From an uncultured Bacteroidales bacterium (GTDB lineage Bacteria; Bacteroidota; Bacteroidia; Bacteroidales; Muribaculaceae): a DNA stretch of 34,686 bases. Location: contig CADBDH010000035.1 of the NCBI GenBank assembly GCA_902793405.1, forward strand, positions 1-34,686. The letters run 5' to 3'. How positions within the stretch are numbered: position 1 is the first letter of the stretch; every line of letters begins with the position of its first letter. The position numbers were made by a program, and so were the translations under genes. Positions 1,328 through 28,995 of the stretch are shown here, one piece after another. Under the pieces are notes generated by a model that made no database searches, had not been told where the DNA came from, and saw only the letters and a list, made by a program, of their open reading frames with translations.

Positions 1328-3703
1328 TCATTTGCCGGCAAGCAGCATGTCGATGAGTCTGGCCACGTCGGCGATATTGATTTCGCCGTCGCCGTCAACA
1401 TCGGCACAGATGCTGCAAATGTCAGTGCTGCCGGCCAGCAGGCTGTCGGCCAGTTCGGCCACATCGCTGATGTTGACAGTACCATCGTGGTTCACATCGC
1501 CCAGCTGATAGGAATGGCCGTTGTCGAACAATGTCACAACCTGTGACTTGCTCCAGCCGCTCTGGGTGCCGTCGGTGTACAGGGCCTTTACCCTGAAGAA
1601 GAACGTGCCGGCCTCGGTCAGGTTCTGCACCAGGTAATGCTTGTCGGTGATACCCTTGACAAGGCGGTAGTCCTCGCCACCTTCCTCGGAAACAGACTTG
1701 AACGAAGTCAAATCGTTGACATCGCCTGCATAGATCTTGATCATGCTCATGTCGGGCGAGAAGTAGTCATCGGTCGAGGTAATGGTGATTTTCTCGCCTT
1801 CGCTGGCAATCACTTGCCAGGAATAGGTCTCACCACTGGCAAACATATGGCCGGCAGGGGCAGTCTGCCCGGAGCCAACCGTGAGGTTACCGCGGCCATA
1901 GCTGCTGTTGATCGTGGTAATCTGCATGGTGAAGATATCGTTCACATAACCGTCGGGCACGGTGAAGGAGATGAAGCCGTCATCGTTATAATTGGTGAAA
2001 TAGATAGCGCTGTTGCCCACTCTAATGCCGTAGCCGTCCCAGGGAGCCGTGAGATCCATCGCCTCATAGCTACCGGGGTAGATGCTGCCGTCGATCGAGT
2101 CGAGCAGCTGGACACTGGGCTTGGTGTTCACCTCAAGGGTATAGCTGTCCACATACTTGCCGGCGGTCTCGTCGGTCCAGTCGGCACGGAACTGCGTCAG
2201 ATTGATGTAGGCCTCGTCGGCGGGCAACATGACGGGCAGATAAGTTTCGAGGGTGGCCACGCCACTGATGGTGACCGTCTTGTCATCGACGCCAGGGCTG
2301 CTCAGGGTGATGGTGGCGGTGTGGTTACCGCTCGCCTGGGGAGCATAGGTCACGGTGATGACCTTGCCAGCCTCTTGATCGGCAACTGCCACGCTGCTGG
2401 CATCCATCGAGAAGAAACCACTCTCATCGTTGAGTGTCAAGGTGATGGCACCCGTGAGTTCCTGGCCCTTGACAGTAAAGGTGGCTGTGGCGCTCTGCTC
2501 TACATAAGCCTCGAAGTTGAGCCTCGACGGATTGACCTTGATGCCGGGCCCCTGGACGGGAGGCTGGATACCCATAATCATCTGCTGCTCGATATCGAAC
2601 GTGTAACCACCGCTGGAGAACGCATTCAGGACAAAGTCGCCATTGCCGTCACCGCTCCAGCCCCAGTTCACATGGTAGGTGTCGGTGCCGGCGGTGTAGC
2701 CGTCGACGTTAAAGGCGTGGCCGCTCCAGCCCCAATAGGAATAGTCATAGCCGCAGTAAACGACAGGACGGCCCTGGGCGAGCTCGTTCTGGAGCAATTC
2801 GGCCCACTCGTCATCGGTGTAATAGACAGCCGTATCGGTGCCATAGTCATCGGTGCGGGTCTTGAAAACGAGCTGAGCCATCTCCTCATCGTAGCCAAAG
2901 AACTTGACGGCACGCAAGATGTCGTCGCCCATGGCACCGCTGCCGCTGGGCGTATAGTCCATGTGCTCCTCCTGCCCCACATAGCGCATCAGCCATGCCA
3001 CGGCATCGGCCTGGGCGGGGGTATAGGAGCCGGTGTACTTGTCCAGCATATTGTCCCAATCAAAGGTGATTGAGGGCAGGGGCTCGACCTGGAAGCCGTA
3101 GCTCTCGTTGGTGTAACCCTCGACAGGAGGCGTCGGGTCGGTGGGATATTTCCAGTAATAGAACACCATCGACAACGACGTGGCGGGACAACCCGTCAGG
3201 CAGTAAGAGCCGTTGTACTGGGGACAATGGTTATAGTAGGGGGCATCCTGGTCCCACTCGGCCGTGAGCATCGGAGCGACGGTGGGCGTGGTGAGACGTT
3301 TTTTTAACTTGGGCTGGTCAACGACCAGGCCGGGATGCAGCTGGAGGTACTCGATCTGGGTCTTGTAGGTGCTGAGCCAGAACTTCATGTTGTCGGGCAT
3401 GCGCTTCATGTCCAGCGGACGGTCGCCATAGGCCAGAATCTGATGGGCGCGGTCGTCGCCGGCAACGATGACAAAGCCGCGCTGGCTATTAAAGATGTAA
3501 TACACAGGCTGGTCGGCGCGGGCAGTACTAGCCTCGGCGTGAATCAATTTGACATCACTGACAGGGACTCCGTTAAAACGTAACCCCGCCTGGCTCTGCA
3601 TGAAGCGGTGAGCCGTCATCTTGGCCATGGCCATATCCACATGGGCTGCGGAGACCTGCATGGCAGCCACCACCAAGGTGGCAATGAGCAGTAATTTCTT
3701 CAT
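1328..3703 (-). CDS. Secreted C10 (streptopain-like) cysteine peptidase with C-terminal dockerin pair
   Basis: The 791-residue protein starts with a signal peptide (about 1-19). A propeptide of the C10 type follows, including FVIVAGDDRAHQILAYG. The papain-fold catalytic domain has the nucleophile Cys172 in TGCPATS, His329 in SGHAFNVDGY and the Trp pair in HVNWGW (344-349). Residues about 388-480 form an Ig-like module of the kind common on Bacteroidales secreted proteins (begins VNPSRLNFEAY), followed by a fibronectin-III-like region. Residues 735-791 (DNA 1331-1501) carry two dockerin-type calcium-binding repeats, GDVNHDGTVNISDVAELADS and ADVDGDGEINIADVARLIDM; these diverge most from the window consensus. 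Known C10 members (streptopain, interpain A) are secreted endopeptidases that self-activate. The catalytic residues look intact. It has its own -7 box and terminator, so it appears monocistronic. Confidence 0.93.
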   Translation of the reverse strand: MKKLLLIATLVVAAMQVSAAHVDMAMAKMTAHRFMQSQAGLRFNGVPVSDVKLIHAEASTARADQPVYYIFNSQRGFVIVAGDDRAHQILAYGDRPLDMKRMPDNMKFWLSTYKTQIEYLQLHPGLVVDQPKLKKRLTTPTVAPMLTAEWDQDAPYYNHCPQYNGSYCLTGCPATSLSMVFYYWKYPTDPTPPVEGYTNESYGFQVEPLPSITFDWDNMLDKYTGSYTPAQADAVAWLMRYVGQEEHMDYTPSGSGAMGDDILRAVKFFGYDEEMAQLVFKTRTDDYGTDTAVYYTDDEWAELLQNELAQGRPVVYCGYDYSYWGWSGHAFNVDGYTAGTDTYHVNWGWSGDGNGDFVLNAFSSGGYTFDIEQQMIMGIQPPVQGPGIKVNPSRLNFEAYVEQSATATFTVKGQELTGAITLTLNDESGFFSMDASSVAVADQEAGKVITVTYAPQASGNHTATITLSSPGVDDKTVTISGVATLETYLPVMLPADEAYINLTQFRADWTDETAGKYVDSYTLEVNTKPSVQLLDSIDGSIYPGSYEAMDLTAPWDGYGIRVGNSAIYFTNYNDDGFISFTVPDGYVNDIFTMQITTINSSYGRGNLTVGSGQTAPAGHMFASGETYSWQVIASEGEKITITSTDDYFSPDMSMIKIYAGDVNDLTSFKSVSEEGGEDYRLVKGITDKHYLVQNLTEAGTFFFRVKALYTDGTQSGWSKSQVVTLFDNGHSYQLGDVNHDGTVNISDVAELADSLLAGSTDICSICADVDGDGEINIADVARLIDMLLAGK

Positions 3704-3796
3704 AAACTTGCTGTTAAATATTTAATGTTAATGATAAATGATGGCAATTCAGCTAATTGCAAGCCAAAGCTGGCAAAACATGACAAAATGCGACCG

Positions 3797-3804
3797 CAAA
3801 TATA
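3797..3804 (-). promoter_or_regulatory. -7 box for the first C10 peptidase gene
   Basis: The minus strand reads TATATTTG, a full TAnnTTTG match, about 94 nt upstream of the ATG. The DNA upstream is AT-rich, but no TTTG sits at the expected -33 spacing. Confidence 0.45.
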
Positions 3805-3881
3805 CGAATAATTCTTATTTTATTACTATTTTTGGTGTATTTTTAGAAAAATGATACTTTGCCTAAATCACCCTGGCACAC

Positions 3882-3909
3882 AAAAAAACCGCCACGCGGG
3901 AGCATGGCG
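3882..3909 (-). terminator. Intrinsic terminator of the TonB-C-domain gene
   Basis: On the minus strand CGCCATGC (3902-3909) pairs with GCGTGGCG (3890-3897) around a 4-nt loop, followed by a T run (3882-3888). It lies 32 nt after the stop codon at 3942. Confidence 0.85.
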
Positions 3910-3941
3910 ATTCATATATCTATGGTCTGTTTTTGACTGTT

Positions 3942-4382
3942 TTAGAGCCTGAAGTTGATGGGCAGCACCACCCTCACGGGAACGGCCTGCTTGCCCACCT
4001 TGCCCACGCTCCACTTGGGCATCTCGCCAATCACGCGGATGGCCTCACGGTTCAGACTCTCGTCGCCCGCACCGCGGATCACGCGCACGTCGCTCACGCG
4101 GCCGTCGGTGCCCACGATGAAACTGCACAGGACACGTCCCTGAATGCGCTTCTTGTAAGCGTAATAGGGATATTCACGAGTCTTGTTGATGAAGTTGATC
4201 AGGCCACGCTCGCCGCCAGGGAACTGCGGCTGGATGTCCACATAGTCATACTCATAGACTTCCATATATGACTGCTTGGACTGCGGATTGACCGTGGTGA
4301 CATGACGCACCTGCGCTGCCATGGGTAGCACTGCCGTCAATGCCAAAAATGCCAATAATCCAATGCGTAATTGTCTGAGCAT
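3942..4382 (-). CDS. Small secreted protein with TonB C-terminal domain
   Basis: From the ATG at 4380-4382 this encodes 146 residues; I prefer it to an in-frame ATG 16 codons upstream because it begins directly with a good signal peptide (MLRQLRIGLLAF, cleavage near AQV). Nearly all of the rest is a TonB C-terminal domain: PQFPGGERGLINFI, the basic YKKRIQGRVLCSFIVGTDGRV strand region, and the terminal PVRVVLPINF strand. Unlike true TonB energy transducers it has no proline-rich spacer and no convincing retained membrane anchor, so it is more likely one of the small periplasmic TonB-C proteins common in Bacteroidetes. Whether it contacts the SusC-type receptors is unknown. It has its own promoter and terminator. 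Confidence 0.85.
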   Translation of the reverse strand: MLRQLRIGLLAFLALTAVLPMAAQVRHVTTVNPQSKQSYMEVYEYDYVDIQPQFPGGERGLINFINKTREYPYYAYKKRIQGRVLCSFIVGTDGRVSDVRVIRGAGDESLNREAIRVIGEMPKWSVGKVGKQAVPVRVVLPINFRL

Positions 4383-4442
4383 AGGCCTTCTAGATTGTTT
4401 AAATAATGGGAAGAAAGACGGTTTTTCCACCTTTCAACGGCA

Positions 4443-4474
4443 CAAATATAGAGTTACAAACGCAAACCTCAAAA
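4443..4474 (-). promoter_or_regulatory. Bacteroidetes-type promoter of the TonB-C-domain gene
   Basis: The minus strand shows TTTG (4470-4473), a 19-bp spacer and TATATTTG (4443-4450), matching both halves of the Bacteroidetes consensus at the right spacing. The predicted leader is about 55 nt when the start at 4382 is used. Confidence 0.7.
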
Positions 4475-4579
4475 TCAATTAGTTTGTTTTTGCAAACAAT
4501 TAGCATTGTTTCAATCTTTTTGACTAAAACCCGCAAAATTCAAAAAAAATGTAAATATTTTCAATTCTGAATCAAAAAG

Positions 4580-6208: not shown

Positions 6209-6213
6209 ATCGG

Positions 6214-6221
6214 CAAAATTA
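6214..6221 (-). promoter_or_regulatory. Possible -7 box giving a near-leaderless pseudouridine synthase mRNA
   Basis: The minus strand reads TAATTTTG, ending 5 nt before the ATG at 6208. If used, transcription would begin at or very near the start codon. No matching -33 TTTG was found. Confidence 0.3.
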
Positions 6222-6266
6222 CTGATTTTTACCCTGCTTTGGGGTGATTTTCGCCGAAATTTGCAC

Positions 6267-6274
6267 TATATTTG
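6267..6274 (+). promoter_or_regulatory. -7 box for the DUF4250-xth-permease-miaA run
   Basis: TATATTTG followed by CA matches TAnnTTTG, 31 nt upstream of the DUF4250 start at 6306. The nearest upstream TTTG (6238-6241) is 25 bp away, longer than the usual spacer. Confidence 0.5.
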
Positions 6275-6305
6275 CAAGCTCATCTACAATCAAGGCGCAG
6301 TCACG

Positions 6306-6485
6306 ATGAATTTGCCGCAAGATCCCTACATGAAGTCACAGTATGTGAACATGCTGCTCAAGTCCAACAACATGGACTTGAATACCTTGTGCGTGAGTGC
6401 AAACATCGACATGATTTCCCTGCTCGATGAGCTGGGCCGTGCGGGCATCGCTTATGATTCCGCCAGTCGACAATTCAGAACTTAA
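6306..6485 (+). CDS. DUF4250 domain protein
   Basis: A 59-residue protein beginning MNLPQDPYMKSQYVNMLL, the characteristic opening of DUF4250, and ending with the family's YDSASRQF-type tail. An in-frame TTG further upstream (6261) was not chosen, because it overlaps the -7 promoter box and family members begin at MNLPQDPYM. No biochemical function is established for this family; the middle is predicted helical (NTLCVSANIDMISLLDELG). It is the first gene of a plus-strand run and ends 20 nt before exodeoxyribonuclease III. Confidence 0.85.
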   Translation: MNLPQDPYMKSQYVNMLLKSNNMDLNTLCVSANIDMISLLDELGRAGIAYDSASRQFRT

Positions 6486-6505
6486 ACCATAAAACATCAT
6501 CAGCA

Positions 6506-9510: not shown

Positions 9511-9529
9511 CAACCGTAAATCCGAATTC

Positions 9530-10127: not shown

Positions 10128-11558
10128 CTACTGTTGGATTCCCCACTGGTTGTTGAGGAAATCGACCTTTTCCCGCATTCTCATCTTATAATATTCGTTC
10201 TGGACTTCAAGACTATCCCAGTATTTGCCAGGCCATCGCATTCGGTCGGCTTCGCTCGCCGACGATATCCTGTTTATCAGAGAGTCGATATAACTCTCCA
10301 TAGTTTCCATCTGGGACGGGTAGAATTGTTTCCAGTGATTCCTCACCAATTCCTGAAACCAGTCACTTTGGACCATTTTTTCCAGCCAATAAGGCTTGAA
10401 CATTTCATCTGTGTTCTCATACAAGAAACACGGGTCCTCATAATCTGGATGTCCAAAGGCGCATCCAAAGTCCCACACCGGTCCGAACAGCAGTTTGGTG
10501 CTGTCCCCGCGATGTTTGTGAAGAAAAAGGCTGCCTTTAAAAGATTCGATGTCATCAACAACTTCATTCACAATGTAGAAACACGCGAGTGTATCCAAAT
10601 CGATATACTTTTCCCACTCGCTTTCGGAGCCCTCATTAATTGCTTTGTCTGTTTGCAGCATCAGGTTGTAGATATAGTCCATTTGTGCGTCTGAAAGGCT
10701 GTCAGGGCTATGGTACTTGACGGGCAACACCTTACCGTCATCCTCTGGGATAAAGAACTGGTTTTCATCACTATGCCCGTCTATTTCAAGGAGCCATCCT
10801 CCAGTTATCAGCCCCTCGTCGGTCTCACCGTTCTCCTGTTCTGTGATGTTCACCCTGTGTTTGCCGACCCGAATTTTCTCGGTAATGAAGTACAGACCGA
10901 TGTAAATGCCGTTGAGTACTACTTCCACCGGCTCTTGGGCTGGTGTGTAGGCAAGTCCTATCCGCCGGCTCAGCTCAAACCCGACGGGATTTGCCCAAAA
11001 GTCATGTGCCAACAGGCAGAAGTGCCTATTCTTCTTCAGCCCCATCAGCGACTGTTTAGTGTCGAGTTTTATCCGATAAGGCTTTTTGTCCGAGTGCTCC
11101 CAAGTATAGTTGCCTCGCCCCTTGATTTGCATCCCCAGCGGATGTTGCTGGGATCCGAGGGACTGATAGCTCTCAATCCCACCTGCGTCGAGCCACCATT
11201 CGGCATGGATGTAGTCCGACTTGTCCTTTCCTGTTATCTCGCGGTGGCCCTCGGTGTTGATGTACAGTACCGGCAGTGTGCCCGAGAAGGTAGGCATCGG
11301 TGGAAGTTCGCCTCCCATAATTGCTCCGATGAGGGCATTGATGTCAGCTATATTGACCTCGCCATCCCCGTTCAGATCTTTATCAAAGTAGTCTTGATAA
11401 GAGGTTCTCCCTAAAATAATGTCAATGAGTGTGTTGATGTCGGCAATGTTGATTTCCCAGTCGCAATTCACATCACCCCGCGGTCGCAGCGGGCTTTGGC
11501 CACTGCTGCATAAAGCAACAGTTGGCCAAAATATAAGAAGTAATAATAATATCTTCAT
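10128..11558 (-). CDS. Secreted CotH-family kinase with N-terminal dockerin pair
   Basis: The 476-residue protein has a signal peptide (1-17), then two dockerin-type repeats at residues 28-82 (DNA 11313-11477): GDVNCDWEINIADINTLIDI and KDLNGDGEVNIADINALIGA. The CotH fold fills about 95-465: the KGRGNYTWEHSDKKPYRIKL segment (146-165), the LNGIYIGLYFITEKI segment (216-230), and the catalytic-type GPVWDFGCAFG with Asp363. Studied CotH proteins are atypical protein kinases that phosphorylate serines on extracytoplasmic proteins such as spore-coat CotB and CotG. The dockerin pair is at the front, whereas every other tagged protein here carries it at the C-terminus. The start lies 2 nt after the stop of the beta-helix gene, so the two are very likely co-transcribed. 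The DNA is AT-richer than the clusters on either side. Confidence 0.88.
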   Translation of the reverse strand: MKILLLLLIFWPTVALCSSGQSPLRPRGDVNCDWEINIADINTLIDIILGRTSYQDYFDKDLNGDGEVNIADINALIGAIMGGELPPMPTFSGTLPVLYINTEGHREITGKDKSDYIHAEWWLDAGGIESYQSLGSQQHPLGMQIKGRGNYTWEHSDKKPYRIKLDTKQSLMGLKKNRHFCLLAHDFWANPVGFELSRRIGLAYTPAQEPVEVVLNGIYIGLYFITEKIRVGKHRVNITEQENGETDEGLITGGWLLEIDGHSDENQFFIPEDDGKVLPVKYHSPDSLSDAQMDYIYNLMLQTDKAINEGSESEWEKYIDLDTLACFYIVNEVVDDIESFKGSLFLHKHRGDSTKLLFGPVWDFGCAFGHPDYEDPCFLYENTDEMFKPYWLEKMVQSDWFQELVRNHWKQFYPSQMETMESYIDSLINRISSASEADRMRWPGKYWDSLEVQNEYYKMRMREKVDFLNNQWGIQQ

Positions 11559-18675: not shown

Positions 18676-18718
18676 ATGCACATTTATAGTAAAATCACCT
18701 TTTTTTGTTATGATTCTG

Positions 18719-19573: not shown

Positions 19574-21943
19574 TTAATTAAGGATGATGCCGATGACGGC
19601 ATTCACGTCGGCAATGTTGATTTCGGTATCGCCATTCACGTCGCCCGCGGGACGCATGTTACCGGTCAGTATCATCTCGATGATGGCATTGACATCGGCG
19701 ATATTGACTTCACCGTCACCGTTCACGTCGCCCGTCAAGGTCTCGTCCTGCGGCATGCTGGCATAGACCAGTTCCATGCCCGGAATCTTGAGGCTGTACT
19801 GCTCGCCTGTGGTGACCGAGTTGAACGTGAGGTAGTAATAGACCAGATGCAACGGGAAGTTGCCCAGGTCGGCCGCATCGCAGATGTCAGCGACAGGAAC
19901 GTCGAGGGTAATCATCTGTGCATCGCCAGCGCTCTCGACGGGATATTCCACCTGCACGCGTTCGCCATAGGCCGTCTCAACGAGCAGTTTGACCGTCTTG
20001 AACTGGATGCCGCCAGGAATCATGCGCAAGCGCAGGGTGTCGGGCAGTCCCCACATCTGCACCGCTTTGGCAATCTTGATGTAGGGGTTGCGGGACGAGG
20101 CCCCTGTGAAATCCATCTGCAAGCCGTTATCCAGCGTAGTCCATACACAAGACTTGCCGCCACTCATGGTCACAGCCCAAGTGTCAGGATCGATGGACGT
20201 GTTCTCGACGGTGGTCACCCGTGCCTTGGGATTCTCGACCCGCACGAGCAGCGAATCGGCCAGCAAGGGATGACTGGAGCCGACAAACGTCTGCCCGTCG
20301 GCCACAGCGGTGATGATACCTTGTTCGTTCACGACACAGACCCCCACGTCCGAGGAAGTCCATGCCACTACACTAGGGTCCACCTTATCCAGGCCATAAC
20401 CGCTAATGCCGTTGATGTTGATGGGATAGTCGTGGAAACGGTCCACCACCACGCTGTCGCTCACCAACTGCCATTGTGCCTCCATGATGGTCACAGGCTG
20501 GGTTGCGGTGATGCCATTGTAGGTCGCATAGAGGTTACCCGCGGCAGGCGTCGAAACGGCATGGAAGTAACCCTCGTCGTCGAAGTATCCCACCTGGGGG
20601 TCACACGAGAAGGTGCAGCCCTGCAGGTCACGCGTCTTCAAAACACCATACTGGTTGTATCCCCAAACATCGAACGACGTCGTGGCCGAAATCGACAGGT
20701 TGTAGCACCGCGGCTCAAAATTGATGATGCCGATCCCGTTATCCTCGGGAGCGACCGAAACCAGCAGACATCCATTGCCCACGGCGCGCACCGGACCGTC
20801 GCTGGGGTGATTCAGCACCTCGTCGTTGGCCAGGATGCATGACGAGCCGCCACCATCCAGGTTCACGGCATTGACGGCCCCCAGGGCGTCAAAGATGCCT
20901 TTCATCTCCCAAAGCGTCACGCCCACCGACGTCATGTGGCGCCCGTCGACCACGACAAAGTAGAGACGGGTGCTGTCGGCATTAAAGCCGATAGCCGTGC
21001 GGGGATGGCGCTCGGCCCAGTCCTCCATGAACTGCCCGTTCTGCATGATGATGTGGTTGCTGCCACCTATCAGCTGGTGGATGTTCACGTCGCGGGGGCC
21101 ATTATTGAGGGTAAGGCTGAAACTGATGTCCAGCACATCACCCACGTTCATCCATTCGGTCTGGTTGGCATAGGTGCCCTTGAGCCACAAGATGGCCTTG
21201 CCGTCGGGGATGGTCGTCGAGCCCTTGGCATCGAAGATGTCCTCGATGACACAATGCTCCTGGCCGTTGGCCAGCCAACGGAAGTCGCCCTCGACAGGCC
21301 GCAGCAGCACCATCTTGCCCGAGTTGGACGCGTCATAGGTCACAGGACCGTAACTGCGGGTGAACAGGAAAGACTGGTTGGCAGCGATGTTCTCATAGGC
21401 ATAGCGCATGCGGTTCACCAGATTGAGCGCGAACGAATGGTCACCGCCGGTCACGCTGCCCGTGAAGGTCAATCGGTCGATGTAAGGGTGGTTATCCTCG
21501 TCCAGCACCAGGCAAGCACGGTTGTGGCTGCTCAGCACCAATTCATCGTTGCGCACCTGGCCACTCAGCGGCAGGCCCACCTCGTTGGTAGGCGAGGTCA
21601 TGAAGAAGTCACCGTTGACGGCGCTCACGACCTCGTGCCCCGGCCAAGTGTTGCGTGTGGCCATACTCACCGGCGTCTCGCAAGCCACCGATTTCTCGCC
21701 ACCCAGGCAGGTCTCCATCACGATATAGGGGTTGGTCAAGTCCATCTCGACCACGCTCACCTTGAGCGGCAATGCGGGAATATCATACTTGGCGGCAATC
21801 ACGCCCGGCCCTGCAAGATGCGGGAAGATGAGCGTGTCCACATCATAGGCCTTGTCGCCGATGGTCCACTGGTCACGGGCAGCACCCGTGACCGTTCCCA
21901 TCAGCAACAGCGCCAGTGTTGCCCAAAAAATTGAACGTCTCAT
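19574..21943 (-). CDS. Secreted phosphodiester glycosidase (NAGPA domain) with C-terminal dockerin pair
   Basis: The 789-residue protein has a signal peptide (about 1-20) and an NAGPA/DUF2233 catalytic domain. Typical motifs are AVNGDFF (108-114), RHPRTAIGF (312-320), VVVDGR (330-335), GVTLWEM (341-347), VNLDGGGSS (360-368) and VRAVGN (385-390). The founding member removes GlcNAc from a GlcNAc-phosphodiester; bacterial relatives act on phosphodiester-linked sugars. Ig-like and lectin-like beta modules fill about 410-735. Residues 738-789 (DNA 19577-19732) are two dockerin repeats, GDVNGDGEVNIADVNAIIEM and GDVNGDTEINIADVNAVIGI. The start codon overlaps the stop of the preceding 461-residue gene by 4 nt (ATGA), implying translational coupling. 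Confidence 0.92.
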   Translation of the reverse strand: MRRSIFWATLALLLMGTVTGAARDQWTIGDKAYDVDTLIFPHLAGPGVIAAKYDIPALPLKVSVVEMDLTNPYIVMETCLGGEKSVACETPVSMATRNTWPGHEVVSAVNGDFFMTSPTNEVGLPLSGQVRNDELVLSSHNRACLVLDEDNHPYIDRLTFTGSVTGGDHSFALNLVNRMRYAYENIAANQSFLFTRSYGPVTYDASNSGKMVLLRPVEGDFRWLANGQEHCVIEDIFDAKGSTTIPDGKAILWLKGTYANQTEWMNVGDVLDISFSLTLNNGPRDVNIHQLIGGSNHIIMQNGQFMEDWAERHPRTAIGFNADSTRLYFVVVDGRHMTSVGVTLWEMKGIFDALGAVNAVNLDGGGSSCILANDEVLNHPSDGPVRAVGNGCLLVSVAPEDNGIGIINFEPRCYNLSISATTSFDVWGYNQYGVLKTRDLQGCTFSCDPQVGYFDDEGYFHAVSTPAAGNLYATYNGITATQPVTIMEAQWQLVSDSVVVDRFHDYPININGISGYGLDKVDPSVVAWTSSDVGVCVVNEQGIITAVADGQTFVGSSHPLLADSLLVRVENPKARVTTVENTSIDPDTWAVTMSGGKSCVWTTLDNGLQMDFTGASSRNPYIKIAKAVQMWGLPDTLRLRMIPGGIQFKTVKLLVETAYGERVQVEYPVESAGDAQMITLDVPVADICDAADLGNFPLHLVYYYLTFNSVTTGEQYSLKIPGMELVYASMPQDETLTGDVNGDGEVNIADVNAIIEMILTGNMRPAGDVNGDTEINIADVNAVIGIILN

Positions 21944-23325
21944 GACTTCAAGATAATTTCAATCACCGCATTCACATCGGCAATATTCACCTCAAGGTCC
22001 CCGTTGACGTCACCCCTAGACTCATTGACGCCACCGAGAATCATCTCGATGATGGCGTTGACGTCGGCGATATTCACCTCGCCGTCACCGTTCACATCAC
22101 CCTTGATGCCCGGCTGTTCACCGGCATCCACGTTGCGGCCAATCTTATAGACCGCCATGCCGTTGTAAGCCTTGAACGTGAACAAAGTCACCTCTTCAAA
22201 GCCCTCATCATCAACGCCATATTCCACGGCAAAGCAGTGCACACGCAGGCCGCTGTCGTTGACCTTGCCCAGGCTGTCGGCGGGAATTTTCCAGTACTTG
22301 GTCATGCCGGCCAGCGACTGTCCCTCGCCCAACTCACAGATGTTGGCCTGGCAACCATATCCGTCGCCGTTCATGTCGGCAATGACATAGGACAGGAAGT
22401 CACGTCCCTCGAGGTGGAACTCGATGCAGCCGTTAGGAGCCGCCTTGGGCCACAGTTCAGGAGCCACGTCCTCGAACGAGTCGATGACCGAGCCCGAGAA
22501 GTCGTAGATGACCGGAGCCGTGTCAAAGCAGTCGATGTAGAACATCTCGCCACTATAGCGCGAGTCCTCGTCAGGTCCCTCAATCATCTTGATGACCGGA
22601 GCCAGCGAGAAGCCCGTTTTGGTCTCGGGGTAGAAATTGATGATATCCATGTAGGGGTCGCCGTCAAAGCCACCTTCCCAGTCGCCGCCCTGGTCGGCAT
22701 GCATGCGGTAGAGCGTGGGGAAGCCGGGATCGGCCGTCGAACCCGCAACGGTCATGATGTTGCACTCGGCCTCCTCGAGGGTGAGGTCACCGATGACGTC
22801 CAGATAGTCGGTGCGCTGCGGAGCGTCGCCCTTGTCGAGTTCGACAACGAGTGTGAGTTCGCCTGTCTCGGTATCCACCAGATAGACAGGAACATACTGT
22901 TGCACGTTACTCGTCATGGGAGCCACCCAGATGTGGTGGAAATTGTCCTTGCCGATGCTGGCCACGCCCAAGAAACGGCCGTAAGGGGCACCGTTGAGCG
23001 TCAACGGGAGGTCTTCCAACTGGCTGCCGTCGGCTGCCGAGAAACGGTGAATTACCGACTGAGAAATGGTGTCGGTGCCGATGACGACCGCTTTTTCCTC
23101 GCTGCGGGCCACATAGATGATGCCCTGGTCCATCGTCGCCGTGCGGGCGCGCTGATTGCAGATGACATTGCTGGTATAATCATTGCCACTGTGCACACGG
23201 TCAAAAATCCACTTGTTGACAATCTTGATGCCGTTGACCTCGGGATAGGTCTGGCCGTCGGTTACCGCCATGGCACCCAAGGCCGAAACAAACACAACAA
23301 ACAAAAGAAGTAATGATTTTTTCAT
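21940..23325 (-). CDS. Secreted dockerin-tagged protein of unknown function, paralogue A
   Basis: The 461-residue protein has a signal peptide (about 1-20, ending AMAVTDG). The body alternates short strands and loops and repeatedly names a value and its display (YVARSEEKAVVIGTDTISQS, PVYLVDTETGELTLVVELD, MAVYKIGRN), which suggests a beta-propeller-like fold; no family was recognised. The central motif HADQGGDWEGGFDGDPYMDI is almost identical in the neighbouring paralogue. Residues 409-461 (DNA 21943-22101) carry the dockerin pair, the second repeat being GDVNGDLEVNIADVNAVIEI. It overlaps the phosphodiester glycosidase gene by 4 nt. A terminator-like hairpin lies 46 nt upstream of its start, between it and paralogue B. 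Confidence 0.85.
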   Translation of the reverse strand: MKKSLLLLFVVFVSALGAMAVTDGQTYPEVNGIKIVNKWIFDRVHSGNDYTSNVICNQRARTATMDQGIIYVARSEEKAVVIGTDTISQSVIHRFSAADGSQLEDLPLTLNGAPYGRFLGVASIGKDNFHHIWVAPMTSNVQQYVPVYLVDTETGELTLVVELDKGDAPQRTDYLDVIGDLTLEEAECNIMTVAGSTADPGFPTLYRMHADQGGDWEGGFDGDPYMDIINFYPETKTGFSLAPVIKMIEGPDEDSRYSGEMFYIDCFDTAPVIYDFSGSVIDSFEDVAPELWPKAAPNGCIEFHLEGRDFLSYVIADMNGDGYGCQANICELGEGQSLAGMTKYWKIPADSLGKVNDSGLRVHCFAVEYGVDDEGFEEVTLFTFKAYNGMAVYKIGRNVDAGEQPGIKGDVNGDGEVNIADVNAIIEMILGGVNESRGDVNGDLEVNIADVNAVIEIILKS

Positions 23326-23463: not shown

Positions 23464-24849
23464 TCAACCCTTCAAGATGATGCTGATAACGGCATTCACG
23501 TCGGCAATGTTCACCTCGAGGTCACCGTTCACGTCACCCCTGGGATCATTGACGCCCCTGAGAATCATATCGATGATGGCGTTCACATCGGCGATGTTCA
23601 CCTCCTCGTCACCGTTCACGTCACCCGTGATGCCGGGCTGCTCGCCACCGCCCACGTTAGAACCGATCTTGTAAACGGCCATACCGTTGTAGCACTTGAA
23701 GATGAACAGGGTCACTTCCTCGTTACCCTCGTCGTCGACACCATATTCCACGTTCATGCTCTGCACACGCGTGCCACCGTCACTCACGGCACCCAACTCA
23801 TCGGGCACCATCCAGTAACGCTGCATGCCACCGAGCGACATGCCCTCGCCCAACTCGCAGATGTACACCTGACAGGCCTTGTTTACCATCGTGGCCTCGT
23901 CAACACCGGTGTACTGGGCAGCCACAAAGACGATAAAGTTGCGGCCGTCGAGCGTGAACTCACACACACCGTTGGCACCAACGTCCATGGGCCAGAATGC
24001 GGGGTCAACATTCTCGAAGTTGTCCACCATGGTACCCGTCACATCATAGAGGATGGGCGATGACGAGAAACCGTCGATGTAGAACAGTTCACCGGCATAG
24101 TTGCCTTCTTCCTCCAGAACCATCTTGGCCACGGGAGCATAGCCCCACTGGGTCACGGTCTCGGGATAGAAATCCAAAATGGCAAGATAGGGGTCGCCGT
24201 CAAAGCCACCTTCCCAGTCGCTGCCCTGATCGGCATGCCAGCGGTAGATATACTCTGAACTGGCACCCACCGTCATGATGTTGCACTCGTCCTGCTCACG
24301 GGTGATGTCACCCATCACATCGATGTAGTCGCAACGCTGCAAGGCGTCACCCTTGTCGAGTTCACCCATCAGAGTGAGTTCGCCGGTCTCCTTATCCACC
24401 AGATATACGGCCTGAATGGTCGACAGGTTGCTCGAGAACGGGGCCATGTACAGGTTGCCGTAATTGTCGAGGCCCACCGTGTTGCTGCTCAAGGTAGCAC
24501 CACCGTAGATCTTGCCATCCAGCGTCAGAGCCAATTCCTTGACCATCTCGCCGTTGGTAGCATCCAGCTTGTAGATGACGCTCTGGCTCAAGGTGTCGGT
24601 GCCTTGAATGATGGTGTTGGCATTGGAACGCGCGATGTAGATGTAGCCGTCACCCATCACCGCAGTACGGGCACTGGTGTTGCAATAGGGCTTGTTGCTC
24701 CACACATCGGGCGTGTGGGCACGGTCCTGAATCCACATGTTAACGATATTGATACCGTTAACCGGTTCATACTTCACTCCATCGGTCACGGCCCACGCAG
24801 TGGCAGCAGCCGAAACCATCAACAGGGAAAGTAGTAAAAATTTCTTCAT
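23464..24849 (-). CDS. Secreted dockerin-tagged protein of unknown function, paralogue B
   Basis: Also 461 residues, this is a tandem paralogue of the following gene. They share the opening MKK...AVTDG, GTDTLSQSVIYKL, YLVDKETGELTL, HADQGSDWEGGFDGDPYLAI, QVYICELGEG and VEYGVDDEGNEEVTLF. The signal peptide ends near residue 20. Residues 409-461 (DNA 23467-23625) hold the dockerin pair, with an unusual GDVNGDEEVNIADVNAIIDM first repeat. The mature domain again looks propeller-like, with no known family or catalytic motif. It has its own well-spaced promoter in the gap after the CotH lipoprotein gene, so its level may be set apart from the upstream PUL genes. Confidence 0.85.
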   Translation of the reverse strand: MKKFLLLSLLMVSAAATAWAVTDGVKYEPVNGINIVNMWIQDRAHTPDVWSNKPYCNTSARTAVMGDGYIYIARSNANTIIQGTDTLSQSVIYKLDATNGEMVKELALTLDGKIYGGATLSSNTVGLDNYGNLYMAPFSSNLSTIQAVYLVDKETGELTLMGELDKGDALQRCDYIDVMGDITREQDECNIMTVGASSEYIYRWHADQGSDWEGGFDGDPYLAILDFYPETVTQWGYAPVAKMVLEEEGNYAGELFYIDGFSSSPILYDVTGTMVDNFENVDPAFWPMDVGANGVCEFTLDGRNFIVFVAAQYTGVDEATMVNKACQVYICELGEGMSLGGMQRYWMVPDELGAVSDGGTRVQSMNVEYGVDDEGNEEVTLFIFKCYNGMAVYKIGSNVGGGEQPGITGDVNGDEEVNIADVNAIIDMILRGVNDPRGDVNGDLEVNIADVNAVISIILKG

Positions 24850-24908
24850 AATTGCTTGATTTTAAATAGTTTATATCATTGTTATTGTTTTAATCCCGTT
24901 AATTGTAG

Positions 24909-24939
24909 CAAAGTAACGAAAAAAACTGCAGATTTCAAA
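24909..24939 (-). promoter_or_regulatory. Promoter upstream of paralogue B
   Basis: The minus strand reads TTTG (24936-24939), a 19-bp spacer, then TTACTTTG (24909-24916), one mismatch from TAnnTTTG. It lies about 60 nt upstream of the start codon, inside the otherwise collinear PUL-like cluster. Confidence 0.55.
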
Positions 24940-24973
24940 AATTTTTTGTCCGTTAGTTTGCTGATGTCCAGCC

Positions 24974-26392
24974 TTAGTTATCAACGGGTTGATAGCCCAA
25001 TTGCTCGTCCATCCAGGCGATGCGGTCGTGCAGCCATCGCTTGAGGTAGGCAATCTCGTCGTTGAAGTCCTTGGCAATATAGTAGTTGGGCCACACATAC
25101 TGCCCCCAGCGGGGCCAGGCCTGGCTGTTGCGGGCCTCGGCGCCGTGCGAGGTGAGCAGGGTGGCCAGCGAATCGACGGTGGCCATGATGCGGCTCTCGC
25201 TCAGGTTGGCGGCACGCATCTGCGCCCAGCGGGCCTTGAGCGCATTGGTATAGTCCGGGTCGCTGTTCAGGCGATACCACCAGAACGGCACCAGATACAC
25301 CTCGCCCGCGCCATAGAGCACATCGTTGCTCTGATAAATCCAGGTGTCGGTGCGCCAGCCTTCGCAGTTCTTGGTGTTGCCATAGGCCAGATTGGTGTCC
25401 CAAATTGCCATCTTGAAGCGCCCGTCGAGGCCATCGCGGCGCTTATAGAACTTGCCGCTCAGGCGGTAGCCGTCCACATTGTGGCCCAGTTCGGTGGCCA
25501 ACTGGTAATCGATGAACGAGGCCACGTCGATGTAGCGACGATAACCCGTCTGCGGGTTGCGATAGTCCTGGGTGGCCAAAGCGGCCTCCATCTGGTTGAT
25601 ACGGCCGTTGATATAGGCCAACTGGCGCTCGTTCAACTCGTCCAGGTCGGGCGACTTGTACTGGATAAGGATTACCTTGTCCTTGTAGGGCACGCCCTGG
25701 CTGCTCACGGGGTGATAATGCGAGGTGTAGGTCGGCTCGTCGTTACAGTCCACTTCCAGCAGGTAGTCGCCCGTGAGGGCATCGCCATCCTTGCCGGGTT
25801 TGTCCAGATTCAGGCGGTGCTTCCCCTTAGAAACCACTTCACACAGGATATACACGCCATAGTAGGTGCCGTTGAGGAACACCTCGCAGTAGCGCCCCCG
25901 CGGGGTGAACTCCATCCAGGGACGCATCAGTTCGTAGGTGAGCATGTCGCGCATCATGCTCTTGTCGGAATACGGCGCTATCAGGGCCCAGTTGTCGTCC
26001 TTGCCCATTCCCAGGATTTTGACCTTCTTCTTGGAGCCATACTTGAGTGTGCCATCCAAGGTGCGGAACGAGTAAGGCTTCTTGGGCGAGTCGTTGTAAG
26101 TCGAGTTGCCGCGGTAACGCAGGGCGATGTGCCCGCTGTAGTCGATGCGCTGACCGGGATGGGCAACCGTGTCGGCATAGTTGAGGTTTGCTGGTCCGTT
26201 GTCGATGATTTTCATGCGGGCATCGATGCGACGATAGCGGTCAATGTCCCTGGCGCCCACCTCAATCCACACGATGGGCAGATTGGTCGAGGTGAGTTCC
26301 ACCCTTGTGTCGTCAGGAGGGAAATTGGCCTTCTCACGCTTGCAAGCCAGCAGCGTGAGCATCAGCATCATTATGAAAATCAGTCGCTTCAT
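24974..26392 (-). CDS. CotH-family kinase lipoprotein
   Basis: The 472-residue protein has a lipoprotein signal peptide with lipobox LTLLAC (Cys17) and a CotH domain over about 35-460. Visible segments are HIALRYRGNSTYNDSPKKPY (88-107), EVFLNGTYYGVYILCEVV (170-187) and MAIWDTNLAYG with Asp332, the counterpart of the catalytic aspartate. CotH proteins are atypical kinases acting on secreted proteins. Unlike the CotH protein of the AT-rich island it has no dockerin and is predicted to be lipid-anchored, so it could act at the cell surface on the tagged proteins encoded beside it. It lies 38 nt after the GHL10 hydrolase gene and is probably co-transcribed with it. Confidence 0.9.
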   Translation of the reverse strand: MKRLIFIMMLMLTLLACKREKANFPPDDTRVELTSTNLPIVWIEVGARDIDRYRRIDARMKIIDNGPANLNYADTVAHPGQRIDYSGHIALRYRGNSTYNDSPKKPYSFRTLDGTLKYGSKKKVKILGMGKDDNWALIAPYSDKSMMRDMLTYELMRPWMEFTPRGRYCEVFLNGTYYGVYILCEVVSKGKHRLNLDKPGKDGDALTGDYLLEVDCNDEPTYTSHYHPVSSQGVPYKDKVILIQYKSPDLDELNERQLAYINGRINQMEAALATQDYRNPQTGYRRYIDVASFIDYQLATELGHNVDGYRLSGKFYKRRDGLDGRFKMAIWDTNLAYGNTKNCEGWRTDTWIYQSNDVLYGAGEVYLVPFWWYRLNSDPDYTNALKARWAQMRAANLSESRIMATVDSLATLLTSHGAEARNSQAWPRWGQYVWPNYYIAKDFNDEIAYLKRWLHDRIAWMDEQLGYQPVDN

Positions 26393-26430
26393 ATCAATTA
26401 TTACATCAAAAGAACCGTCCCTATTTTACC

Positions 26431-28995
26431 CTAGGTGAGGATAATGTCGATGATGGCGTTGGCGTCGGCGATATTGACCTCGCCGTCACCGTTCACGTCG
26501 CCGGCAATCGTCATGTCGCCCGAGAGAATCATGTCAATGATGGCATTGACATCGGCAATGTTGACCTCGAGGTCACCGTTCACGTCGCCCGTGACGGCCT
26601 CGTGGTAAACAAAGGAGCGGATATCGGTATAGTCGGTGTACTGTACTGCGGTGCCGGTGGCTATCGTGCGATAGGCAAAACGAGCACGCACATAGTAGGT
26701 ATTGCCATCGGTCAGTTTGCCAGCCCCCTTGATGTCACCCAGGCGGGGCGTCTCAAAGATGCCGCCGTCTATCGTGCCACTATAGGTCGTGCGCGACGGG
26801 AACGTCTCAGACGAACTGATCTGTACCCTCAACGAGCCAACGCCCTCGACGGGCTCTACCTTGACCACATCGGTCGAATAGAGCACCGCATCCTCCTCGC
26901 CAGGAACGACAAACACGGGCACGGGCGGAATCACCTCGGCAGTGGTGAACGACGATACCGGGGTGGTCACCGTCGTCTCGCGATAGGTCGCAGAAACGCG
27001 CACGTAATAGGTCGTGGCGCCGGCCAGCAGGTACTTGGGCACCTGCCATTGCGGCCTGATTTGCAGCACGCTGTCGGGGTTGCTCATGGTGGATGAGGTG
27101 GACAATTCCAAGATATAGACCGTGCCGGGTACTCCTTCGGTCCACGTGATGGTGGGGGTCAAGGGTACGTCGGTAGCGCCATCGGCAGGCGAGGTGATGC
27201 GCATCTGCCCCAGGGTGAACTGCCGCAATTCGCTGGCGTTGTCCCACTGGTTGAGGCCTCGTGCGACCACGCGCCACCAATAGGTGCCGCTTGTCAGGCC
27301 AGGGATTCTGGTCAGCGGGCACGTCATCGACTCCATCTCGACCTGTGCCACGAGCGAATCCATCTGCTGGTCGGCATAGACCTGCACCATGAAGGTCGTG
27401 GCGTTGCAGTACCATTGCAGGGACGAGAGTTCCGACACCTCGGCTCCGTCCTCGGGATAGGTCAATATTGGTTGCTCGGCCTGTGTCGGCACCACACCCG
27501 GCGTGGCGGGGGCATACTCGTTCTCCCAACGGTCGAGGATGGTCACCGCATAGTGATAACCCTCACGCTTCTTGCTGGGCACGGTATAGGACGCCCAGTA
27601 ACTGACGCCGTCGATGTATTGCGCCTGGCAACGGAATTCGCCATCCGTCACCTCATCGGGGATGGCATAGATGACGTAGCGCACATTGGGAATGCTGTCC
27701 CAGGTGAGCCGGCCATCGCTGTAATCCAGGTTGGTTACCGTGGTATAGGTCTGGTCGGGCTTGAGCCACGCAGGGGCGGGATTGAGGGCAATGGTCGAAT
27801 AGAGGCTGTCCTTGAGCCAGGTGCGCAGTTGGCGGACCTTGCCGTCGATGACCTCCTTCTTGTTGCGCCACGTGCCGTAGCGGAAATAGACCATGCCCGG
27901 ATTGCCGCCAGCAGCCATCGCCTCGCGCATGACGCGTCCCTGCTTGACGAACTCGGCAAGCGTCCAGCCCTCTTCGTCGGGAATCCACTGGCTGATGAAG
28001 ATGTGACGGTTGAAGCGTGCAGCCATCTTGCCCCACCAGGTGGTGACCCCGGTAAAGGTGCCGGTCGTCTTCCAATAGACCTGCGGCGCCAGGAAATCGA
28101 TGGTGCCACGGGTCACCCATGCCATGGGGTCGCTGTAAATCTGGTTATACTGCCAGTCGCTACCCACGGGACAAGGCTCCACACCATACTTGTCGGCCAC
28201 GGCTTGGGAGGTGCAGGCCACACCGGCGGGGCCGATGCCGAAGCGCACCCACGGCTTGGTCGTCTTGACCATGTCGTTGACGTCCTTGACCATCTGGTTA
28301 ACGTTCTCGCGGCGCCAGTCGCCCTGCGACATCGTGCCGCCCGCAGCCCGATAGTCGCTATACAGGTCGGCATCGAGCGAGAACGACGGGTTGTCCTGAT
28401 TGTAGAAATAGTCGTCAAACACCAGTCCGTCAACGTCATACTTGACCAAAATGTCCTTGCACACGTCAACGATGCGCTGACGCACCTCGGGGATGCCGGG
28501 ATTGAGTACCGTCTCATAACTAGTGGTCAAGAGCCACTCGGGATGGGTATAGACGTAGTCCCGCTCGCTTTGCCCCCACATGTTGTCGCCGTGGCCATAA
28601 CGGTAGGGATTGACCCAGGCATAGACCTCGATGCCGCGCTTGTGGGCCTCCTGAACAAGATACTCAAACGGGTCGAAGGCCGGAGCCACGCCACGGGTGC
28701 CCGAAACGTAACTCGACCAGGGCTCGTAGGCCGAATTGTACATCGCGTCGCACATCGCCCTGACGTGGTAATAGACCACATTGATGTGGTTGACGAGCAT
28801 CGTGTCGAGCATCTTGCGGCAGGCATTCTGCATGATGGGCGTGTTGCTTGCCGTGATGGCACCGCTGGGCCAGTCGCTCAGGTAGGCCGTCATCCAGATT
28901 CCGCGCTGTTCACGCTTGGGCGGCATGTCGGCAGCAATGGCAAAACTGGCGACAAATGTCACCAGCAATGCTATTATGGTTATTCTTCTCTTCAT
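26431..28995 (-). CDS. Secreted GHL10-type glycosyl hydrolase (DUF187/YngK-like) with C-terminal dockerin pair
   Basis: I start at the ATG 28993-28995 (854 residues), which begins a clear signal peptide (MKRRITIIALLVTFVASFAI); the longer frame to 29064 runs into a repeat element. The TIM-barrel GHL10 domain spans about 28-400: KREQRGIWMTAYLSDW, VVYYHVRAMCDAMY, VYAWVNPYR (124-132), VDGLVFDDYFY (188-198, likely acidic residues Asp194/Asp195) and FLAPQVYW (301-308). Three fibronectin-III-like modules follow (about 425-795). Residues 803-854 (DNA 26434-26589) are the dockerin pair GDVNGDLEVNIADVNAIIDM and GDVNGDGEVNIADANAIIDI. Members of this group are inferred glycosidases; several relatives are linked to peptidoglycan or exopolysaccharide, but the substrate here is not known. 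Confidence 0.9.
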   Translation of the reverse strand: MKRRITIIALLVTFVASFAIAADMPPKREQRGIWMTAYLSDWPSGAITASNTPIMQNACRKMLDTMLVNHINVVYYHVRAMCDAMYNSAYEPWSSYVSGTRGVAPAFDPFEYLVQEAHKRGIEVYAWVNPYRYGHGDNMWGQSERDYVYTHPEWLLTTSYETVLNPGIPEVRQRIVDVCKDILVKYDVDGLVFDDYFYNQDNPSFSLDADLYSDYRAAGGTMSQGDWRRENVNQMVKDVNDMVKTTKPWVRFGIGPAGVACTSQAVADKYGVEPCPVGSDWQYNQIYSDPMAWVTRGTIDFLAPQVYWKTTGTFTGVTTWWGKMAARFNRHIFISQWIPDEEGWTLAEFVKQGRVMREAMAAGGNPGMVYFRYGTWRNKKEVIDGKVRQLRTWLKDSLYSTIALNPAPAWLKPDQTYTTVTNLDYSDGRLTWDSIPNVRYVIYAIPDEVTDGEFRCQAQYIDGVSYWASYTVPSKKREGYHYAVTILDRWENEYAPATPGVVPTQAEQPILTYPEDGAEVSELSSLQWYCNATTFMVQVYADQQMDSLVAQVEMESMTCPLTRIPGLTSGTYWWRVVARGLNQWDNASELRQFTLGQMRITSPADGATDVPLTPTITWTEGVPGTVYILELSTSSTMSNPDSVLQIRPQWQVPKYLLAGATTYYVRVSATYRETTVTTPVSSFTTAEVIPPVPVFVVPGEEDAVLYSTDVVKVEPVEGVGSLRVQISSSETFPSRTTYSGTIDGGIFETPRLGDIKGAGKLTDGNTYYVRARFAYRTIATGTAVQYTDYTDIRSFVYHEAVTGDVNGDLEVNIADVNAIIDMILSGDMTIAGDVNGDGEVNIADANAIIDIILT

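Follow-up and report, generated by a model that had tools for sequence, protein, structure and literature searches.

A candidate cohesin-dockerin system encoded by gut Bacteroidales

Seven secreted proteins of differing families, all encoded within the window (the whole 34,686-nucleotide stretch of DNA analysed here), carry the same kind of short paired repeat, which raises the question of what this repeat is and what it binds. The initial annotation described it as one uniform dockerin-type tag with a single partner specificity, and placed its receptor elsewhere in the genome or in a new fold. We consider it likely that Bacteroidales themselves encode a cohesin-dockerin system and that the repeats of the window are its client side.

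Dockerins of the window and of the genome

All seven proteins are present on the minus strand and match PF00404 above the gathering score (E 4.1e-5 to 2e-11), and Pfam bears out the partner families named earlier: two C10 peptidases, a CotH protein, an NAGPA-type glycosidase, a GHL10 protein and two paralogues. The features are listed below with a second CotH protein as comparator; dockerin coordinates come from a PF00404 search of the own genome, and classes T and N are defined further on.

1328–3703, minus: C10 peptidase with I69 propeptide and C-terminal class T dockerin (PF01640 E 7e-47, PF13734 3.7e-18, PF00404 4.1e-10)
1340–1504, minus: its dockerin, class T
10128–11558, minus: CotH-family protein, dockerin just after the signal peptide (PF08757 E 1.1e-28; PF00404 2.5e-6 at aa 28–80)
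11319–11477, minus: its N-terminal dockerin, class N
16111–18681, minus: C10 peptidase with I69 propeptide and C-terminal class N dockerin (PF01640 E 1.8e-64, PF00404 2e-11)
16120–16275, minus: its dockerin, class N, the one modelled (16114–16296; also AF2/Foldseek)
19574–21943, minus: NAGPA-type phosphodiester glycosidase, C-terminal dockerin (PF09992 E 5.4e-29, PF00404 4.7e-8)
19583–19732, minus: its dockerin, class N
21940–23325, minus: unknown-family protein, paralogue 1, C-terminal dockerin (PF00404 2.3e-7)
21952–22104, minus: its dockerin, class N
23464–24849, minus: unknown-family protein, paralogue 2, C-terminal dockerin (PF00404 4.1e-5)
23476–23625, minus: its dockerin, class N
24974–26392, minus: comparator, second CotH protein with no PF00404 match (PF08757 E 1.6e-50)
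26431–29064, minus: GHL10 glycosyl-hydrolase-like protein, C-terminal dockerin (PF02638 E 1.1e-51, PF00404 2.4e-6)
26440–26589, minus: its dockerin, class N

The dockerin occupies the extreme C-terminus in six of the seven and is N-terminal in the CotH protein. The two CotH proteins, with and without dockerin, share 24% identity, and the N-terminus of the second resembles, by eye, a lipoprotein signal (..LLACKREK). The two paralogues are 57% identical and match no Pfam family besides dockerin. The 14 half-repeats are indeed arranged in pairs, although the HMM puts the pair at 51–54 residues instead of the 52–57 claimed, and the Ile-Ala described after the Asn recurs as N-I-A in 13 of them and as N-I-S in one.

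By sequence these repeats are true dockerins, as the initial annotation had supposed, and the predicted fold agrees for the one modelled. The annotation had allowed that the pair might fail to fold in this way; structure prediction returned a dockerin (AF2 mean pLDDT 90.7, pTM 0.75), and dockerin chains make up 30 of 31 among the Foldseek matches listed against the PDB, with a best E of 7.4e-3, TMq of about 0.7 and none at E≤0.001. The Foldseek listing includes a dockerin mutant named S45A, T46A. A dockerin profile (A6) matches the solved dockerins 2mte/1daq at 2e-12. Genome-wide, positions 3 and 5 are occupied by the calcium ligands expected there in 283 of 293 parsed half-repeats, the half-repeat pattern itself requiring two of the ligands, Asp at 1 and 12.

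A profile search of the whole genome located the tag in 152 ORFs, fragments included (4 of them under 110 aa long, and 19 truncated at a stretch edge). A rough rule assigns 101 of these dockerins to class T and 46 to class N, with 5 in neither. The description of a uniform tag thus stands for six of the seven window dockerins, which are of class N (..ADVN.. or ..ADIN..), and fails for the C10 peptidase at 1328–3703, which is of class T (..ISDVAEL.. and ..LIDMLL); with two main classes, the single partner specificity is not upheld. Specificity of dockerins for cohesins would instead run class to class.

Of the 133 dockerin ORFs that no stretch edge cuts, 122 have a signal peptide, five with a lipobox-like stretch, as scored by a rough rule of our own and not by SignalP. 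The dockerin lies at most 15 residues from the C-terminus in 120 of the 152 ORFs and near the N-terminus in 12, all 12 with a start that looks by eye like a signal peptide; these N-terminal dockerins speak against the dockerin being a C-terminal sorting signal by itself. Client families were read in two batches covering 148 ORFs (best 25 of 39 and best 25 of 44 families matched). Among the families listed, LRR_5 occurs in 32 and C10 peptidase in 25, beside M6 and S8 proteases, BspA-like LRR, CotH and FGE-like proteins and some glycosidases; the mixture of proteases with glycosidase-like proteins first noticed in the window is therefore seen among the clients at large. Some clients carry alpha-amylase, CBM26 or GH53, no cellulase family appears in these two lists, and the clients listed are not mainly plant-polysaccharide enzymes, as those of a cellulosome would be. 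Our literature search on dockerin together with peptidase C10 found no paper. Contamination of the metagenome-assembled genome (MAG) by a cellulosomal Firmicute was rejected because the window encodes a SusD-like protein, the contamination listed is 0.68%, and all 36 sampled congeners have dockerin matches, at least 29 to 89 in each.

Candidate cohesins and their two-gene locus

The receptor was expected outside the window, and candidate cohesins are indeed encoded elsewhere in the genome. PF00963 alone detects two above its cut-off (0–4 per congener), and an initial reading of "almost no receptor" was overturned by a lineage-specific Bacteroidales profile, A1, built after weak PF00963 matches in long ORFs had led to cohesin arrays. 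A1 detects seven cohesins at E<1e-10 in six proteins, five of the seven being seen with A1 only and not above the PF00963 cut-off; four are themselves rows of A1, and three (C4:81809, C4:83863 and C3:76440) are not. The best PDB sequence matches of A1 are scaffoldin cohesins, from R. flavefaciens (2.6e-8) and C. acetobutylicum (1.8e-7). Judged from these profile matches, the candidate receptor domains are cohesins, and the suggestion of a new fold can be dropped. A cohesin fold is also predicted for the Coh-Doc-Coh protein of a relative (L154, not the own genome's copy), modelled with a pLDDT of 85.2, which matches PDB cohesins such as 2xdh, 4dh2, 3ul4 and 6kge at TMt 0.62–0.79.

Three of the seven cohesins lie in a two-gene locus made of a Coh-Doc-Coh gene, whose product has the architecture LRR-Coh-Doc-Coh-tail, and a neighbouring Coh-Doc gene with one cohesin and one dockerin. 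The other proteins are two LRR-Doc-Coh, one small Coh-tail and one LRR-Coh-Doc, so that at most two cohesins per protein were found in this genome (90% complete). The two-gene locus has a counterpart in 28 of 37 related loci, whose records are titled Bacteroidales, Muribaculaceae or Prevotellaceae (33), Porphyromonadaceae (3) and Caldithrix (1). Viral contigs, scanned with a 277-aa segment of the Coh-Doc-Coh protein, yielded no match. Larger arrays occur in relatives: a congener (G011) has a six-cohesin protein (L030) with a dockerin at its end, and in other families arrays of 4 to 10 cohesins adjoin a dockerin gene, the one of 10 being in G084.

A tail resembling a sorting domain (profile A4, built from a seed of nine tails, of which cohesin proteins supplied eight) is present in 5 of 8 cohesin proteins versus 1 of 147 dockerin-only ORFs (p 5e-7, by a Fisher test chosen after the table was seen). 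Pfam and NCBIfam give no match to this tail on the cohesin proteins, and none of these proteins contains TIGR04183, the type IX C-terminal domain, which the genome has in 7 places above the cut-off. SprA (TIGR04189) is found at 2616 bits, and together with the tails it suggests a surface location for the cohesin proteins.

The proposed system and its alternatives

We propose that clients exit the cytoplasm via Sec signal peptides, their crossing of the outer membrane not being explained by the model, and that the dockerin of each would plug into a cohesin on one of a few scaffold or anchor proteins encoded elsewhere. The C-terminal tails probably route most cohesin proteins through type IX secretion to the surface. 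It would then be the dockerin, and not a sorting domain in the client itself, that holds clients there or joins them in small complexes. Proteins with both cohesin and dockerin may act as adaptors, and we infer a function in protein degradation and adhesion. On this reading the dockerins would bind the cohesins, and this bacterium probably builds cellulosome-like assemblies. Against this main reading stand the excess of 152 dockerin ORFs over seven cohesins in six proteins and the exceptions to the co-occurrence described below.

The dockerin could go further and be a stand-in for the type IX sorting domain, addressing the secretion system in trans. Some 150 clients, almost none of them with a sorting domain, would reach the surface only via cohesin proteins with a tail, and would bind cohesin perhaps already in the periplasm. 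We hold this extension to be doubtful.

Another explanation is that in most clients the dockerin pair has no cohesin to bind and is a calcium-stabilised terminal cap, or a secretion or stability module, multiplied in the genus, while the few cohesins serve other ends. The ratio of dockerins to cohesins, about 20 to 1, favours it, as does the position of the dockerin close to the C-terminus in most ORFs; the 12 N-terminal dockerins, however, are unexplained by a C-terminal cap or sorting signal, and R. albus offers a precedent for few cohesins and many dockerins (PMC6118326). The distribution of the two domains bears on the same question. Cohesins occur in 36 of 37 genus genomes, the own included, versus 2 of 24 genomes of other families, which weighs against a partnerless cap, but in the remaining congener (G013, 83% complete), with its at least 41 matches to dockerin, no cohesin reaches E≤1e-6. 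Among 294 Bacteroidales genomes, a dockerin match was found in 27 of 27 cohesin-positive versus 79 of 267 cohesin-negative genomes (Fisher p 1e-13, a test likewise chosen after the table was seen, and p-values are overstated because relatives are not independent). Only 1–3 dockerin matches occur in 16 of the 27, and some of these matches adjoin the cohesin gene or lie inside it (e.g. G252, G168, G209, G259), which means that the co-occurrence is partly that of a single locus; seven cohesin-positive genomes have at least 10. Eight genomes have at least 12 PF00404 matches and no cohesin (G088, G127, G139, G148, G151, G218, G263, G308), which again suits a cap or module. In G127, G148, G151, G218 and G263 most or all of the matches listed begin at model position 8–11 and may represent another calcium repeat; G088 has a fuller match among those listed. 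Taken as a whole, the cap or module seems to us improbable.

We find it very unlikely that the cohesin-like domains receive no dockerin and are instead cohesin-related beta-sandwich modules for adhesion or sugar binding. They do lie largely in LRR proteins, often with a dockerin in the same chain; the PDB matches of A1 include modules of carbohydrate enzymes that resemble cohesins (NagJ), and the fold matches of L154 extend, at low TM-score, to integrins and other adhesins. Against this, the top sequence matches are scaffoldin cohesins, cohesins predominate among the single-domain fold matches, several having been solved with a dockerin, the arrays of 4 to 10 in other families and of 6 in the congener are scaffoldin-like, and the domains co-occur with dockerins. 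A true cellulosome acting on plant cell walls is an extremely improbable reading: the genome does encode cohesin as well as dockerin, the titles of several related MAGs give ruminant guts as their source and there are some alpha-amylase, CBM26 and GH53 clients, but 32 of the 148 clients scanned have LRR_5 and 25 have C10 peptidase, and cellulases are missing from the families listed.

Relation to known systems

In sequence and in predicted fold, the two domain families of the cohesin-dockerin system proposed here are those of the type I cellulosomes of Clostridium, Acetivibrio and Ruminococcus. The dockerin recognition pair of C. thermocellum is Ser-Thr, in contrast to Ile-Ala or Ile-Ser here, and cellulosomes are attached to the surface via Gram-positive anchors, in place of which we find C-terminal tails. 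The host also differs, being a member of the Bacteroidales, as do the many protease and LRR clients and the maximum of two cohesins found per protein. Common to both are proteins with cohesin and dockerin together and a large client set, P. cellulosolvens having 206 dockerin genes (PMC11557425). For R. albus it has been suggested that a cohesin tethers individual enzymes to the cell and does not build a complex (PMC6118326). Many dockerins with few cohesins liken our system to that tether; the phylum and clients are different, and here it is mainly LRR proteins that contain the cohesins, tails being present on most. The Limousia mucinolysome (2026), which has dockerin peptidases (PMC12997984), and the R. 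bromii amylosome are likewise cellulosome-like and directed at other polymers, both in Firmicutes. With TIGR04183, the dockerin would share the role of an address at the protein's end, in a genome that has SprA; unlike TIGR04183, with its seven places, the dockerin is found in 152 ORFs and also near the N-terminus.

According to the 2026 paper, cellulosome systems outside Firmicutes had not been described, and the occurrence of dockerin with cohesin in Bacteroidetes, in 78 MAGs, was called surprising and in need of study (PMC12997984). Earlier reports describe dockerins in Bacteroidetes from the rumen of camel, cow and moose, with a role "not defined yet" (PMC7480376, PMC6071333). Cohesins were likewise reported in certain Bacteroidetes: Bin136 is tabulated with 5 dockerins and 1 cohesin gene and named among bins having two to four tandem cohesins (PMC6071333), and one Prevotellaceae MAG encodes a two-cohesin protein (PMC5830445). 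The co-presence of the two domains in Bacteroidetes is thus already in print; the accessible parts of the rumen reports, unlike the present analysis, describe no conserved cohesin locus, anchor tail or comparable client set.

The present analysis names candidate cohesin proteins, a conserved two-gene locus and a client list, which bring a test of binding within reach of a few purified domains. If the proposal is true, the plug-and-socket principle extends to proteases and adhesin-like proteins of Gram-negative gut bacteria, and a function could be given to many dockerin annotations in Bacteroidales.

Dockerins in the window and across the genome

The Pfam Dockerin_1 model (PF00404) scored above its cut-off in all seven minus-strand proteins of the window that the initial annotation had described as sharing one dockerin-type tag, at positions that agree with a search of the whole genome. 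The domain lies at the extreme C-terminus in six of them and behind the signal peptide in the CotH protein. The reading of its 14 half-repeats was equally accurate, with N-I-A in 13 and N-I-S in one. One window dockerin of the seven, that of the C10 peptidase at 16111-18681, was modelled with 40 other sequences (mean pLDDT 90.7), and its repeat pair is predicted to adopt a dockerin fold: 30 of the 31 PDB matches listed are dockerin chains (TMq about 0.7), with a best Foldseek E-value of 7.4e-3 that is weak taken alone, and a dockerin profile search against solved dockerins gave a strong match (2e-12).

Two CotH homologues with 24% identity are encoded in the window, one with an N-terminal dockerin (10128-11558) and one without a dockerin (24974-26392), whose N-terminus is lipoprotein-like. 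Dockerin and lipid anchor are perhaps alternative anchors in this pair. Three genes immediately upstream of the run of dockerin genes, here with their Pfam results, possibly form one nutrient-uptake locus:

29237-30976, PKD protein
31061-32119, protein without Pfam match
32148-34067, SusD-like_2 protein

The genome (3.19 Mb, 90% complete, 0.68% contamination) contains at least 150 PF00404 matches, these being the best 150 of 270 candidates. A genome-wide profile search for the dockerin variant, as the initial annotation had suggested, returned 152 dockerin ORFs (own profile, E<=0.01) once stretches around all 143 dockerin places outside the window were included, a count in which four ORFs fall below 110 aa and 19 are truncated at the edge of a stretch. 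In 120 of the 152, the dockerin reaches to 15 or fewer residues from the C-terminus, and in 12 it lies near the N-terminus. PF00404 matches range from at least 29 to at least 89 per genome among 36 congeners (best 87 or fewer places scored), and from 0 to 2 among 24 genomes of other families, except for 38 in G039.

An approximate rule, based on residues that follow the helix start, assigns 101 of the genome's dockerins to class T (DVT/DVA..LID) and 46 to class N (DVN..), with one mixed and four others; by the same rule, the window holds six of class N and one of class T. The first recognition position is Ile or Val in 277 of 280 parsed half-repeats; at the second, among 293 parsed, Ala accounts for 54% and Ser for 25%. 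Since the two main classes coexist and the recognition residues vary, the single partner specificity considered likely from the window is not supported for all dockerins; judged from sequence, two specificities are plausible.

Pfam domains were scanned in 148 dockerin ORFs (67, 70, 4 and the 7 of the window, with the four short ORFs left out), and PF00404 matched in 146 at the thresholds used. Family counts are lower bounds, as they cover 25 families per batch and edge-cut ORFs lose domains: LRR_5 (BspA type) occurs in at least 32 and Peptidase_C10 in at least 25 of the 148, followed by M6 (at least 8), FGE-sulfatase (at least 7), alpha-amylase (at least 5), CotH (at least 5 plus 1 in the window) and GHL10 (at least 2 plus 1 in the window), with at least 4 Peptidase_S8 and 3 Endonuclease I in the batch of 67. 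A rough rule assigned signal peptides to 122 of 133 uncut dockerin ORFs.

Candidate cohesins and their locus

The initial annotation had placed the receptor elsewhere or in a new fold; the former agrees with candidate cohesins found elsewhere in the genome, and their being cohesins argues against the latter. The Pfam cohesin model gave two matches over cut-off in this genome, each in an LRR protein that has a dockerin as well. Weaker matches in congeners and G039 pointed to proteins with several cohesins, including two adjoining G039 proteins with eight and five cohesins and one protein of congener G011 with six cohesins plus a dockerin. Profile A1, made of 53 cohesin domains from such proteins, matched the solved scaffoldin cohesins 5n5p (2.6e-8) and 6kgc (1.8e-7). 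It found nine places in the genome under study, seven at E<1e-10, of which four are rows of A1 and three (on contigs C4 and C3) are not. The architectures are:

C11, LRR-Big2-Coh-Doc-Coh-tail protein, adjoined by Coh..Doc-FGE
C4, two LRR-Doc-Coh proteins, one with a short tail
C19, LRR-Coh-Doc protein
C3, Coh-tail protein of 235 aa
C4, two weak cohesins (E 5e-4 and 0.04) in tail proteins

An AF2 model of a relative's Coh-Doc-Coh segment (locus L154; pLDDT 85.2, pTM 0.65) matches PDB cohesins and, at low TM-score, integrins and other adhesins.

When the Coh-Doc-Coh alignment was run against 84,980 species genomes, it recovered 37 loci, titled as Bacteroidales, Muribaculaceae or Prevotellaceae (33), Porphyromonadaceae (3) and Caldithrix (1); seven of the titles give a ruminant source (goat duodenum or rumen, sheep, roe-deer abomasum, water-buffalo omasum). 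The Coh-Doc-Coh gene is paired with a Coh-Doc gene (in most cases some 220 aa long) in 28 of the 37 loci, stands alone in L168, and seven other loci have Doc-Coh plus Coh-Coh. In the Caldithrix-titled locus, a dockerin protein adjoins a three-cohesin protein that has a sorting-domain-like C-terminus. Among other families, the multi-cohesin protein often follows a dockerin protein (20 loci, picked for having cohesins).

The second gene of the locus is sometimes longer than Coh-Doc: L040:6072-8708 extends into an FGE-like domain whose score against GldK, a ring protein of the type IX system, is below cut-off, and L154:6276-7691 and L157:10085-11077 look similar at the end. Some congener ORFs longer than 2,100 aa have a single N-terminal cohesin and adjoin a dockerin gene (L024:5972-13579, L025, L026, L028). 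In G084, from a different Bacteroidales family, one ORF truncated at the contig end (L191:2670-7853) encodes ten cohesins.

Co-occurrence and earlier reports

In an even sample of 294 Bacteroidales genomes, 27 had an A1 match (19 of 180 genera), as did 12 of 296 across the phylum, the genome under study included in both. PF00404 matched in 27/27 cohesin-positive vs 79/267 cohesin-negative Bacteroidales genomes (Fisher p 1e-13; kinship among genomes makes all p-values too small). Sixteen of the 27 have only one to three dockerin matches, some within or adjoining the cohesin gene, and part of the co-occurrence is therefore one locus. At least 12 matches occur in eight cohesin-negative genomes, and at least 10 in seven cohesin-positive ones. 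The counts of G127, G148, G151, G218 and G263 are unsafe, because most or all of their listed matches begin at model position 8-11 and may represent another calcium repeat; among the matches listed for other dockerin-rich cohesin-negative genomes, G088 has a fuller one and G308 both kinds, and G139 lies outside those listed. G148 shares its genus with the cohesin-positive G237. At E<=1e-6, cohesins were found in 36 of 37 genomes of the genus under study vs 2 of 24 others, the sole exception being G013, with no cohesin at that threshold despite 41 dockerin matches.

In excerpts of the published record, PMC12997984 calls it 'surprising' that Bacteroidetes account for 78 of 4333 human-gut MAGs carrying both modules and states that cellulosome systems are undescribed outside Firmicutes; PMC11557425, as excerpted, counts 33 cellulosome species among 305,693 genomes, with 'Bacteroid' in its reference list only. 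Other excerpts report rumen Bacteroidetes dockerins of a role undefined there (PMC7480376), a two-cohesin protein in one Prevotellaceae MAG (PMC5830445), one rumen Bacteroidetes genome without cohesin or dockerin (PMC5831590), camel rumen cohesins confined to Firmicutes_A bins (PMC9177762) and R. albus dockerin enzymes possibly anchored by a cohesin (PMC6118326). The excerpted PMC6071333 describes Bacteroidetes bins with dockerins and lists Bin136, with five dockerins and one cohesin gene, among tandem-cohesin bins; co-presence had therefore been noted in 2018. Further reports may exist beyond the open-licence literature.

Candidate anchor tail and proposed assembly

The genome encodes the type IX secretion component SprA (2616 bits) and nine places matching the sorting domain TIGR04183, seven over cut-off. 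Alignment A4 describes a tail of about 48 residues, shorter than TIGR04183, with the pattern ..V.YFN.AGQ....G..IVVTTY.DG....KVIK and 34 places in this genome at E<=0.01, for example:

C4:95595-95738, short C-terminal tail
C10:166327-166470, short C-terminal tail

It has no Pfam or NCBIfam match in the proteins scanned and resembles a type IX sorting domain in shortened form. A4 matched in 5 of 8 cohesin proteins vs 0 of 147 dockerin-only ORFs (p 5e-7 with L060 counted, a dockerin-only ORF with a below-cut-off TIGR04183 match), a contrast in which A4 leans towards cohesin proteins because eight of its nine seed tails are theirs, four from this genome. By our own pattern, a tail closes 19 of the 30 Coh-Doc-Coh ORFs in the 37 loci.

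The analysis shows the domains, their predicted folds and numbers, the loci and the co-occurrence; for binding, specificity, location and export route, we infer the following. Clients would be exported via Sec, and their dockerins would bind cohesins on tail-bearing proteins, which the type IX system would place at the surface. Proteins that combine cohesin and dockerin would link the classes. In the boldest reading, clients would cross the outer membrane in trans on the cohesin protein. The dockerin-rich cohesin-negative genomes and the earlier mention in PMC6071333 lower our confidence; with both weighed, we judge it fairly probable that these modules constitute a Bacteroidales cohesin-dockerin system, with putative binding of many protease and LRR clients, that is expanded in this genus and predates it.
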